Source of the DNA: Actinomycetota bacterium | GTDB lineage: Bacteria > Actinomycetota > Actinomycetes > Mycobacteriales > JACQDL01 | Assembly: GCA_016201065.1 (NCBI GenBank) | Contig: JACQDL010000055.1 | Location: 1 to 64,000, forward strand | DNA length: 64,000 bases | Reading direction: 5' to 3' | Shown: positions 40,066-44,794 of the stretch, piece after piece | How the letters are laid out: each line of letters opens with the position of its first letter | How positions within the stretch are numbered: the stretch's first letter is position 1 | Program-made: the position numbers and the translations under genes | The notes under the pieces: model-generated | Told to the model about the DNA's origin: nothing | The model's database searches: none | What the model saw: only the letters and a program-made list of their open reading frames with translations

Positions 40066-40728
40066 TCACTCCGGGACGCGCTCCGGCCCCCACGCCCATT
40101 CCAGGCTCCGGGCAATCGCGTCGAACAGCTCGTCCAGCGCGGGCCGTACCGAGAGGTTCGGGGTGGAGAACGTCATCGCCAGCACCTTGTCGGTGCCCGG
40201 CACGGGCACGAAGTACTGCGACTCCGCGGTCGCCACGCTGGTCCCGTCGGTACCGGTGAACCCCGAGTTCGTCGTCCTCCGCACCCGCGCGGCGCGGCCG
40301 GCAAGGGTGTCGATGGCGCCCGGCTCCGGGGGCTCGCCGGTCTCGGCGGGATCGTCCTCCGTGACCATCGCGCGGCCGAGCAGCGCGGCGTCGAGGATGG
40401 GCTCGCCGTCGTCACCCCGCGGTGCATCGCCGACGGCGATGACCAGGGACGCGGACAGCGCGATCCCCTGCACCACCTGGTCCATCAGCGCCGCGTAGAT
40501 CGCGCCATGGCTGGCCGCCTGCCGGGCGTAGCTGCGCAGCATGCCGGTCAGGTCCCGCCGGAGCTGACGTAGCTGCGGCGAGTCGTCGGTGCCGATCCGG
40601 TCCTCGACCAGGCGCGCGATCGTGCTGGTGCGGGTTCGCGGATCCAGATCGAGGGCGTACCAGTTCTTGGGGACCGTGATGGTGAACTCCGGCAAGGTTG
40701 TGCCGGGTGCCTCTGTGGCGTTGGGCAT
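40066..40728 (-). CDS. Conserved hypothetical protein at a T7SS-like locus
   Basis: 220 residues from ATG 40728. Soluble, no signal peptide. N-terminus ITVPKNWYALDLDPRTRTST, a helical segment QLRRDLTGMLRSYARQAASH, and C-terminal PNLSVRPALDELFDAIARSL. Its place as third gene after two WXG-like genes, same strand, recalls cytosolic ESX accessory proteins, but I do not see a clear EspG signature. Function unknown. Confidence 0.6.
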   Translation of the reverse strand: MPNATEAPGTTLPEFTITVPKNWYALDLDPRTRTSTIARLVEDRIGTDDSPQLRQLRRDLTGMLRSYARQAASHGAIYAALMDQVVQGIALSASLVIAVGDAPRGDDGEPILDAALLGRAMVTEDDPAETGEPPEPGAIDTLAGRAARVRRTTNSGFTGTDGTSVATAESQYFVPVPGTDKVLAMTFSTPNLSVRPALDELFDAIARSLEWAWGPERVPE

Positions 40729-40799
40729 GGAACCTCGAACTGTTGGCAGGTCGGTGGGTCCGTCCGACCTTAGTCCATTTGTCGAGTCGGACCGCACCC

Positions 40800-41702
40800 T
40801 TACGCGTCGCTCGGCGCGACCGGGAGGGTGATCCGGCGTACCGCGGCGGCAAGCTCCGGGTCCTGGGTCGCGAAGCCCCCGGTGGCGCGTGCCCGCGCGG
40901 CGGCGACCGCGGCCAGGACGGGAACGCCGACCGCCGCCGTGACCGCCCCCGGCGAGCTGGGTGTCCGGCTCGCCGGCCCGCCCCCCGGAACCCCGGCAAG
41001 AGCGAGCGCCAGGAGACTCAACCAGCCGCTCACAGCCCGGAGCAGGGGAGCCAGCCGGGTCAGGGCGCCGACCAGCGGAGCGGTGAGAGCGGGGATCGCC
41101 TGCCGCAGCCAGACGTCGTTGGCCAGGTCGTCGTGCACGGCCTGGTGGATCCGGACCGCCGCGACGTGGGCGGCCCGGTCGCGGTTCTCGATGGCGGTGG
41201 CCATCAGCCGCACCGCGGCCTGTACCTGCTCGCTTGCCAACGCCTGCTGCTGGACGGGGTCCGGCCCGGTCCAGTGGACGTGCCGCGCCCCGAGGTGGAC
41301 CCGACTCTCAGCCTCGACGCGGCGCCGGGCGTGGTCGTCGGCGATCCGGAGCTGATGGGTCGCCATCCGGTAGTCAGCCAGCGCCTTGGCGGCGAGGTGC
41401 CTGGCCTCGCGGAGCTGCGGATGGTAGGTCGCCAACGTCCTGCCGACCGCGGTGTAGCGCTCGATGACCTGGTCGAGCATCGGTGGCAGCGCCGCCTTCG
41501 TCGTGGTGAACCTCGTGGCCGCGGCGCCCTGCCAGAACTGGTCGGCGGTGATGCCACGCAGGCGCTGGTTCTGGGTACGCAGGGTTTCTGCGGTGCTGGA
41601 CAGCTGCGCGGCCAGTGCCGCGATCCGGTCCGGGTCGCCGACGATGGGATTCTGGTCGCGCTCCAGCGCCTGCTGTGCGAGCAGCCTCTCGAACCAGTAC
41701 AC
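40800..41702 (-). CDS. T7SS-like protein with WXG hairpin and hydrophobic C-terminal segments
   Basis: 300 residues from GTG 41702, with GGGAGG five bases upstream. Residues about 20-110 form a WXG-like helical hairpin (DPDRIAALAAQLSSTAETLR, then the turn FWQGAAATRF with W-Q-G). A long helical stretch follows, then hydrophobic segments near 225-270 (LLRAVSGWLSLLALALAG, VGVPVLAAVAAA) and a short tail. Resembles ESX-linked membrane-tethered substrates. Flanked by another WXG-like gene (56 bases upstream) and a hypothetical (71 bases downstream). Confidence 0.6.
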   Translation of the reverse strand: MYWFERLLAQQALERDQNPIVGDPDRIAALAAQLSSTAETLRTQNQRLRGITADQFWQGAAATRFTTTKAALPPMLDQVIERYTAVGRTLATYHPQLREARHLAAKALADYRMATHQLRIADDHARRRVEAESRVHLGARHVHWTGPDPVQQQALASEQVQAAVRLMATAIENRDRAAHVAAVRIHQAVHDDLANDVWLRQAIPALTAPLVGALTRLAPLLRAVSGWLSLLALALAGVPGGGPASRTPSSPGAVTAAVGVPVLAAVAAARARATGGFATQDPELAAAVRRITLPVAPSDA

Positions 41703-41758
41703 CGTGCCTCCCAGCCAGACGAGATGATTCCGCCATCCACCCGTGCCGCCCGATCGGC

Positions 41759-42463
41759 CTACTCGCCGTCGTCGGGCAACTCGGGCTCGACGTCCTGCTT
41801 CCGTCGCGTGATGGCCCATGCCGTGGCACCGGCCGCACCGAGCACCCCAACCGGGGCGGCCATGGCCGCCACACCCAGCGTGGAGTGACCGCCCGCCGCG
41901 CCGGCGGCGGCCGGCTGCGCCGTCGCCGTGCCGCCCACCCCGACCGATCCGCCGCCGGAGATCGCCCCGTGGCCGCCGGAACCGGAGGCACCGCTGCCGA
42001 GCCCACCTCCGGCATCAGCGAGCCCACCTCCGGCATCGGACGGGCCGACCTGCGTGGCCGAGCCCGGGTCGGACCCGCCAGCCGGCGATCCGCCACCCGT
42101 CCCCGTACCGGGATCGCCGTCACCGGGGAGCAGGCCGTCCGGGACGAACGGCCCGCCGTCACCCCCCGCGGACGGCGTCCCGAGCCCTTGCCCGGCGTTC
42201 GCGATACCTTCCTCGATCCGCTGGTATTCCAGTGCCGCCAACCCGGCGGAGTCGGCCACCTGCTGCAGGAGCAGGGAGATCTGCTGCCGGGCGAGGGACC
42301 AGTTGGTGCCGAACACCTCAACGCCCGTCGAGACCTCGGCCGAGCCCAGATACTCCCCCGCCGCCTTGGTCACGCCCGCGATCCCGTCGAAGCCGGCCTT
42401 CACATCCAGCAGCGCCCGGGACAGGTCGGTGAGCGCGGTGTAGTCGACGATGATCTGGCTCAT
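41759..42463 (-). CDS. WXG-like N-terminus, Gly-rich linker and C-terminal membrane helix
   Basis: 234 residues from ATG 42463, with GAAGGA upstream. An N-terminal helical hairpin of about 95 residues (IIVDYTALTDLSRALLDVKA, ending with conserved-looking GTNWSLARQQISLLLQQV) has no exact W-x-G. A 100-residue Gly/Ser/Asp-rich region and a helix STLGVAAMAAPVGVLGAAGA follow, then a charged tail. Heads the three-gene cluster. Probably an envelope-anchored T7SS-type protein (inference). Confidence 0.55.
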   Translation of the reverse strand: MSQIIVDYTALTDLSRALLDVKAGFDGIAGVTKAAGEYLGSAEVSTGVEVFGTNWSLARQQISLLLQQVADSAGLAALEYQRIEEGIANAGQGLGTPSAGGDGGPFVPDGLLPGDGDPGTGTGGGSPAGGSDPGSATQVGPSDAGGGLADAGGGLGSGASGSGGHGAISGGGSVGVGGTATAQPAAAGAAGGHSTLGVAAMAAPVGVLGAAGATAWAITRRKQDVEPELPDDGE

Positions 42464-42595: not shown

Positions 42596-44635
42596 TCAGG
42601 TCTGGCCGATCAGCTGGCCGCTGCCGGGCGCCCACCGGGGCGACCCGCCGGCGGGGTCGGCGTGCCGGTACCACCGGAGCTGGCCGGCTGCGGTGGTCAC
42701 GTAGACCACGCCGTCTCCGGCGGCCACGATCTGCCGGAACGATCCCCACCCGGTCGCGATGACCCGGCCGGCTGACGACCCCCAGATCGCAGCGCCACCC
42801 GTCGGGTCGTCGTGCCGGTACCACCGGAGCTGGCCGGCGGTGGTGGTCGCGTAGATCACCCCGTCCCGACCCGAGGTGACCTGGGCCACGGAGCCCCATC
42901 CGGACGTGACGACCTGACCTGCCCCGCCGCCCCACCACGGTGCACCGCCGGCCGGGTCCAGGTGCCGGTACCAGTGCAGGTCGCCCTTGGCGTCGAGCCC
43001 GTAGATCGCGCCGGCCGCGCCGGCGAAGATCTGGCGGTAGCCGCTCCAGCCGGAGCCGATGACCGCACCGGAGCCGGGCGCCCAGGTCGCCGAGCCGCCG
43101 GCCGGGTCCAGGTGCCGGTACCAGTGCAGGTTGCCGCCCGCGTCGACGGCGTACAGCACGCCGTCGCCGGCCGCGGCGACCCTGGTGTAGGCGTTCCAGC
43201 CCGAGCCGATGGGCAGGTTGGTCGCGGCGGCCCAGGTGGCCGCCCCACTCGCGGGGTCGAGCTGACGGTTCCAGCTCAGCGTCCCGTCAGCGAGGGCGCG
43301 GTAGACCACCCCGGACCCGGCGGAGAGCAGCCGGGTGCCGGACGCCGCCGGCTGGTCCCTGGCCCCACCGACGTCGAGGTAGTCGCTGTCGATGTTGATC
43401 GTGACGTTGCCGTACCGCTCGTCGTGCCCGCCGAGGTACTGCTTGATCCGCTGGTGGCTGGACCACATCGAGTCCGGTAGCACCGGCTCAACCGTCGACG
43501 CGACACCGTTCCAGCGGGCGAAGAAGATGTGGTCCGGTCCCTGGTAGGCGGCCGACGCGGTGACCGCGGCGAGTACGGCGACGCCCGAGCTCGCGCTGCT
43601 GTAGGCCCCGGAGAGGTAGCCGCGCTCATGCAGCCGCGCGGTCCAGCCGGACAGGTACTGCAGCACCGCCGTGGAGCATTCCGGCGCGCTGGTCGGGAAG
43701 GCTTCCATGTCGTCGTAGACCGTGCTTCCGGGTGCCAGCCCGAGAGCCGCCGCCTTGTTCGCCGCGTCGTCGGCCGCCAGCCGGCCCTGGGCGGTCGCCG
43801 TGGGTGGGTTGATCCGGTAGGAGTACGCCGTGCACGGCGCCTGGAGACCCACGTAGATCGGCACCAGGTGCCAGCCGCGGGACGACTGCCGGCTGACCCA
43901 GGCTGCGGTGAGGTTGGGTTGCGCGCAGGCCCGGGCGCCGCCACCGAGATAGACCCCGACGGCCCGGTACGGTGCGCCGAGCCAGGCGTCCATCGCACCG
44001 GACGACGGTGCCGCGCAGGCATCGAAGCCGCCACCGGTGAAGGTCCCTGGCGCGATCACCGTCTGCCCGGCCGGCGGCGGCGCCAGCAGCGGGGCGGCGG
44101 TGCTGACCTCGGCCGTCTTGCCGGCGGGAGCCGCCGTCGAGGTCACGCTCGCACCAGCCACGATCCGCCCGACCAGGGAGGGGTCGGCGCCGTAGGTCAC
44201 GTGCACCAGCACCGAGGCGCCCTGCACCGCGATCGTCGCCTCGCGGTCCATCGTGACCGGCACCGAGGCCGGCATCCTTCCGCCAGCGGGCACCGTGATG
44301 GTGCCGGCCCGTGCCTGCGGCCCGGACCCCGCCCGGAGCGGCTCGATCAGCACCGTGTCGGTCCTGCCGACCAGCCCGGCCGGGCAGTCCTGGTCCGGGC
44401 CGGGCTGGCCGAGGTACACCGCGGCGCGGTCGAGGCGGACGCACGCCGTCGGGTTGGCCGTCAGGTCGATGACCGGCCATGAGGCGGGCACCGTGAGGCG
44501 TACGCCGTGGTAGGTCACCGTCCGGGTCGGCTCGCCCGACCGCCCCGGACTGGCTCCCGCGGCCACGCCGAGGCCCGCGACCAGGACGGTGGCCACTCCG
44601 GTGCCGATCAGACGTTGGACCGAGCTCCTGCGCAC
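42596..44635 (-). CDS. Secreted DUF1906 (Rv2525c-like) protein with five-bladed tachylectin propeller
   Basis: 679 residues from GTG 44635 (AAGGGG upstream). Signal peptide (LIGTGVATVLVAGLGVAAGA), then an N-terminal region of about 170 residues with no known domain. A DUF1906 glycoside-hydrolase-like domain follows at about 203-420 (GFDACAAPSSGAMDAWLGAP, VYDDMEAFPTSAPECS, DSDYLDVGGA). Residues 435-679 are five repeats of about 47 residues with core LHWYRHLDPAGG, the tachylectin-2 beta-propeller pattern known to bind amino sugars. Likely a secreted wall- or glycan-targeting protein; cleavage activity is unproven. Confidence 0.85.
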   Translation of the reverse strand: MRRSSVQRLIGTGVATVLVAGLGVAAGASPGRSGEPTRTVTYHGVRLTVPASWPVIDLTANPTACVRLDRAAVYLGQPGPDQDCPAGLVGRTDTVLIEPLRAGSGPQARAGTITVPAGGRMPASVPVTMDREATIAVQGASVLVHVTYGADPSLVGRIVAGASVTSTAAPAGKTAEVSTAAPLLAPPPAGQTVIAPGTFTGGGFDACAAPSSGAMDAWLGAPYRAVGVYLGGGARACAQPNLTAAWVSRQSSRGWHLVPIYVGLQAPCTAYSYRINPPTATAQGRLAADDAANKAAALGLAPGSTVYDDMEAFPTSAPECSTAVLQYLSGWTARLHERGYLSGAYSSASSGVAVLAAVTASAAYQGPDHIFFARWNGVASTVEPVLPDSMWSSHQRIKQYLGGHDERYGNVTINIDSDYLDVGGARDQPAASGTRLLSAGSGVVYRALADGTLSWNRQLDPASGAATWAAATNLPIGSGWNAYTRVAAAGDGVLYAVDAGGNLHWYRHLDPAGGSATWAPGSGAVIGSGWSGYRQIFAGAAGAIYGLDAKGDLHWYRHLDPAGGAPWWGGGAGQVVTSGWGSVAQVTSGRDGVIYATTTAGQLRWYRHDDPTGGAAIWGSSAGRVIATGWGSFRQIVAAGDGVVYVTTAAGQLRWYRHADPAGGSPRWAPGSGQLIGQT

Positions 44636-44794
44636 GCCGTGCCCCTTCCGGTCTGCTGGAACCGCGCCCGTCGGCGCGGGCGGAGACCTCCCCTGTGATG
44701 GAAACGATCGGCGGGAGCTGGAGTCGCATCTGCCGGGGACCGGCGGAAGTCGCACCTGCCGGAACCGGCTGGGCGGGTGAGGCGTCGAAGCGGC

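Follow-up and report, generated by a model that had tools for sequence, protein, structure and literature searches.

The window, by which we mean the whole stretch of 64,000 nucleotides analysed here, carries on its minus strand a gene in which a glycoside-hydrolase-like domain appeared to be joined to a lectin-type propeller. The question raised by this locus is what kind of protein such a fusion represents, and what the propeller contributes to it. The protein belongs to an ordinary kind, a secreted wall-enzyme-like core with an accessory module, in an unusual combination and with a conserved N-terminal domain that has no known family.

The same gene could also be read as a longer frame of 906 aa. 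The GTG start, which gives a protein of 679 aa, was preferred because homology begins near residue 36, residues 1-28 resemble a signal peptide and the Shine-Dalgarno-like GGAAGGGG is located 6 nt upstream. The start chosen in the initial annotation was the better one on these grounds. Judging from this N-terminus, the protein is probably exported. Its features are given below.

42596..44635, (-): gene of the fusion protein (679 aa, GTG start, stop codon counted in), an open frame
44642..44649, (-): Shine-Dalgarno-like GGAAGGGG, 6 nt ahead of the GTG, from the sequence
44552..44635, (-): signal-peptide-like start, residues 1-28, with RR, a hydrophobic stretch and AxA, by sequence inspection
44141..44530, (-): conserved N-terminal domain, residues about 36-165, with invariant P50, W53, C65 and C84, from alignments of relatives
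44045..44140, (-): Ala/Pro-rich linker, residues 166-197, from the sequence and poorly conserved among relatives
43364..44044, (-): Rv2525c-like glycoside-hydrolase-like domain, residues 198-424 (Pfam stretch 216-419)
44021..44023, (-): D205, conserved acidic residue close to the start of the hydrolase-like domain, from conservation in 71 domains
43703..43711, (-): DxE motif (D309, E311), putative active site, from conservation in 71 domains
43388..43390, (-): D416, invariant acidic residue close to the end of the hydrolase-like domain, from conservation in 71 domains
42599..43336, (-): five-repeat tachylectin-type propeller, residues 434-679, with a 50-residue period, from Pfam, repeat alignment and model

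Pfam searches were carried out on the 679-aa protein. PF08924 (Rv2525c-like) matched residues 216-419 at E 5.8e-48 (164.1 bits against a cut-off of 27.2; profile positions 1-197 of 198), and PF14517 (tachylectin) matched residues 450-677 at E 1.1e-44 (153.3 bits against a cut-off of 29.8). Both matches are far beyond chance, and the architecture first proposed for this gene is real. In its own genome the gene is the single match to PF08924 and also the single match to tachylectin.

The protein resembles the PF08924 family (formerly DUF1906; GH25-like fold) in matching the full profile, in its conserved acidic set and in being probably secreted, and differs from it in having an extra N-terminal domain and a fused propeller. 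To our knowledge, Rv2525c itself lacks a tachylectin tail. The active site of GH25 enzymes consists of a DxE motif and flanking Asp residues. Across 71 aligned PF08924 domains, D205 and D309 are conserved at 97% and E311 and D416 at 100%, and all four are present in the window protein. We take these residues to be the counterparts of the GH25 carboxylates, with a putative catalytic role. In the AlphaFold model the hydrolase-like part shows strands alternating with helices, at low confidence, and a profile of the core matched 1sfs in the PDB at E 1.6e-4 over part of the domain. Rv2525c-type proteins have been linked to the mycobacterial cell wall while their activity is unproven. A peptidoglycan hydrolase was proposed for Rv2525c from its structure (Bellinzoni 2014, as cited in PMC10480492).

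The propeller was analysed by aligning its repeats. There are five of them, with ten invariant columns, and the GW motif recurs at residues 479, 529, 579 and 629; at the DNA level this is a 150-bp tandem repeat. Five repeats of 47 residues had been proposed. The number of repeats stands, while the period is 50 residues, 47 being the value for tachylectin-2. The blade Trp is retained in all five blades and the GW motif in four of the five. The structure of tachylectin-2 (1tl2) matched the C-terminal part at E 2e-7, as did related lectins. A full-length AlphaFold model built on a four-row alignment was weak (mean pLDDT 51.5), with repeated C-terminal beta-strand blades at pLDDT of about 60-78. 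When this model was used in Foldseek, nearly all of the matches listed were beta-propellers, with PLL lectins at a target TM of about 0.5; 1tl2 was not among the best 50 matches listed. The propeller anticipated in the initial annotation was thus found in the prediction, and we have moderate confidence in it as a fold class, not in its blade detail. The likeness to tachylectin-2 and PF14517 lies in the five tandem repeats, the propeller-type model and the Trp in every blade; the window protein differs in its 50-residue repeats and in the fusion of the propeller to an enzyme domain. Highly repetitive tachylectin-like propellers have been reported only in Actinobacteria and Cnidaria (PMC9218822).

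Binding of GlcNAc/GalNAc had been carried over from tachylectin-2, and this part of the earlier proposal is not supported by the blades themselves. Six substituted binding positions of tachylectin-2 are named in PMC2880987. Its numbering was mapped onto 1tl2 at an offset of 53, where six of six letters agreed, and the comparison covers the positions given in that text. At the D71/D118 position, four residues before the blade Trp, the reported contact Asp is replaced by Gly in all five window blades. The residue following the blade Trp (M76/I123) is Ala or Gly in 5/5 blades instead of Met or Ile, and the V129 position holds Val or Leu in four blades and Pro in one. An Asp-Asn pair directly before the blade Trp, which PMC2880987 does not itself name in its text, is also absent from the window blades. 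Since the sugar-contact Asp is replaced in every blade and the adjoining dyad is lost, GlcNAc/GalNAc specificity should not be assumed. A different ligand is possible.

The tails carried by relatives of the protein were then compared. On relatives with the N-terminal domain and the hydrolase-like domain, the tail consists of FG-GAP repeats, golvesin with FG-GAP, Big_3_5, DUF4214 or fn3, or there is none; DUF346, Golvesin_C, CW_binding_2 and PG_binding_1 tails were also observed on this core, as were PLL-like repeats recognised by eye (L044, L089, L090). FG-GAP or Golvesin_C tails were seen as well on PF08924 relatives in which the N-terminal domain was not detected. A maximum-likelihood tree of 29 cores requires at least 12 tail changes, a bare count in which some tail labels were assigned by eye. 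Close relatives share a tail in this tree, yet one clade with 100/98 support contains both golvesin and PG_binding_1 tails. The window core is placed without starred support; measured along the branches, the row closest to it is L082, which has a DUF346 tail. Proteins on the Streptomyces plasmids NZ_CP108854 and NZ_CP109267 share the N-terminal domain and PF08924 (core about 38% identical) and likewise end in a propeller-type tail, although theirs is made of FG-GAP repeats and that of the window protein is tachylectin. Tachylectin-2 has been grouped with FG-GAP propellers in the VCBS group (PMC9218822), which fits the tails found on these relatives. The protein is not a new kind of system, because its relatives have this enzyme core too, with other tails that often bind the cell wall; it is a known kind of enzyme with an unusual tail.

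The pairing itself was rare in the genomes searched. Tachylectin matches above the cut-off were obtained in 9 of 395 genomes of the class and 4 of 397 of the phylum (the samples overlap), and the core was matched in 31 of 349 genomes of the order. Among the opened frames of the sampled genomes, PF08924 was combined with tachylectin in the window protein only; the other partners of the propeller were M23 (L047, L068), trypsin (L049), NlpC/P60 (L033) or no named domain. The tachylectin tail was absent from all core relatives whose tails were scanned, and no other genome came up when the family to which this genome belongs was searched. The M23 and NlpC/P60 proteins resemble the window protein in placing the propeller on a wall-hydrolase domain (the propeller of L033 is 46% identical), but their catalytic domains are different from PF08924 and unrelated to it. 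By inspection, tachylectin propellers fused to PLC-like and protease-like proteins were also observed in other actinobacteria (L112, L111). Viral contigs yielded one PF08924-type protein, which has neither N-terminal domain nor tail (L036); neither the propeller nor the N-terminal domain was found in them, and the phage records searched gave no match.

Downstream of the fusion gene, three consecutive genes lie on the same strand (40069-42463, (-)). The one at 40803-41819 has a T7SS signal domain and a weak WXG100 match, and the other two have no Pfam match. A link of the fusion gene to type VII secretion was considered and is not claimed, since 133 bp separate it from these T7SS-like genes, which have a promoter-like site of their own in front of them (42530-42501). 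The opposite flank carries a histidine kinase and a response regulator, with an MFS transporter farther off. The neighbouring genes give no functional tie to the fusion gene.

We consider it rather probable that the protein is a secreted GH25-type wall enzyme with a propeller as targeting tail and the N-terminal domain as partner. After export it would act at a cell surface, presumably that of the producer itself rather than of a competitor, where the Rv2525c-like barrel would most likely cleave, or at least bind, cell-wall glycan (peptidoglycan) through D205, D309, E311 and D416. The five-bladed propeller may serve as a multivalent tail that docks the enzyme on surface glycan, one of many such tails interchangeable on this core, and the Cys-pair domain at the N-terminus would be the constant partner of the core and may place or gate the catalytic domain. 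This reading is favoured by the two Pfam domains, the near-invariant acidic residues, the wall-binding and other accessory tails, the number of tail changes, the modelled propeller and the structure-based proposal for Rv2525c. The exchange of tails, together with the tachylectin propellers on wall peptidases, favours a GH25-like, probably muralytic enzyme whose targeting tail can be exchanged. Targeting by the propeller had already been suggested, and the PG_binding_1 and CW_binding_2 tails on the same core lend it support. That one core has taken up peptidoglycan-binding, wall-binding and lectin tails again and again is evidence, of a comparative kind, that its substrate lies in the wall; tail-bearing versions of Rv2525c-type proteins are now on offer for assay. 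The reading is weakened by the occurrence of tachylectin on non-wall enzymes (trypsin and, by inspection, the PLC-like and protease-like proteins); docking on glycan is also weakened by the loss of the reported sugar-contact residue. Nor does the reading gain from the neighbouring genes or from the hydrolase-like part of the model, which is too weak for the geometry of the active site to be judged.

The activity of Rv2525c has not been established (PMC10480492), which weighs against a wall enzyme and leaves room for a barrel that is a non-catalytic, wall-binding scaffold, the whole protein then serving as a multivalent adhesin at the surface or as a matrix protein. The tails are mostly propellers or binding modules, as such a role would have it, and the N-terminal domain also occurs without the hydrolase-like domain, in a 184-aa frame with a signal-peptide-like start from a large genome of the same order (L109:1498-2049, (-)). 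However, conservation of four acidic positions at 97-100% goes beyond the needs of a mere scaffold, and we regard this explanation as unlikely. An antibacterial or scavenging enzyme secreted against the walls of other organisms, with the propeller recognising a sugar on a foreign surface, would account for the patchy distribution, the relatives on Streptomyces plasmids and the exchange of tails between lineages, and the altered sugar-contact positions would permit a different ligand. This appears quite improbable: no immunity or toxin-type gene was found beside the fusion gene, and the literature discusses Rv2525c as belonging to the wall of the cell that makes it (PMC10480492, PMC13122829). 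Degradation of an extracellular polysaccharide other than peptidoglycan, in which the propeller would be the carbohydrate-binding module, is very improbable; tails of the FG-GAP, golvesin and PLL types have no specific tie to peptidoglycan and tachylectin occurs on other secreted enzymes too, but dedicated peptidoglycan- and wall-binding modules are found on relatives with the same core.

The constant partner of this presumed wall enzyme, the N-terminal domain, was examined by alignment. Eight residues (P, W, C, R, D, Y, G and C) do not vary in 16 aligned relatives, and P, W, C, G and C are still invariant in an alignment of 19 rows with more divergent relatives among them. The Cys pair surrounds a CVRFD....VYLG motif, and the P..W motif is invariant. 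The domain co-occurs with PF08924 in Kibdelosporangium, on Streptomyces plasmids and in several further actinobacterial families. The region gave no match in Pfam (residues 30-200), NCBIfam or the PDB, profile searches of Pfam and the PDB included. The suggestion that this region may be a new domain is in keeping with its conservation, its wide distribution in actinobacteria and the lack of a family match, and the unnamed domain is a concrete candidate to be entered as a family of its own. It is quite possible, though we would stop short of calling it probable, that this domain of about 130 aa is an undescribed family that goes with hydrolases of the Rv2525c type across Actinomycetota and serves to regulate or position them, such proteins forming a wall-enzyme platform with exchangeable tails that include lectin propellers. 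AlphaFold gave no interpretable shape for the domain, neither within the full-length model nor for the domain alone, where the pLDDT was 43 on a thin alignment. A PsbP/Mog1-like fold, which the VP..W motif resembles, was rejected, as hhalign gave probabilities of 28% and 19% over 12-25 columns at the motif; relatives of LpqN were looked for in the same genome and none was found. A distant copy of the motif (VPASW and two Cys) is present in a 405-aa frame with no Pfam match (L045:1255-2469, (+)). In genomes of the same order, PsbP-like domains were seen at the C-terminus of frames resembling serine/threonine kinases (L075, L077, L079, L080), and the genome of the window protein also has a PsbP match (L078).
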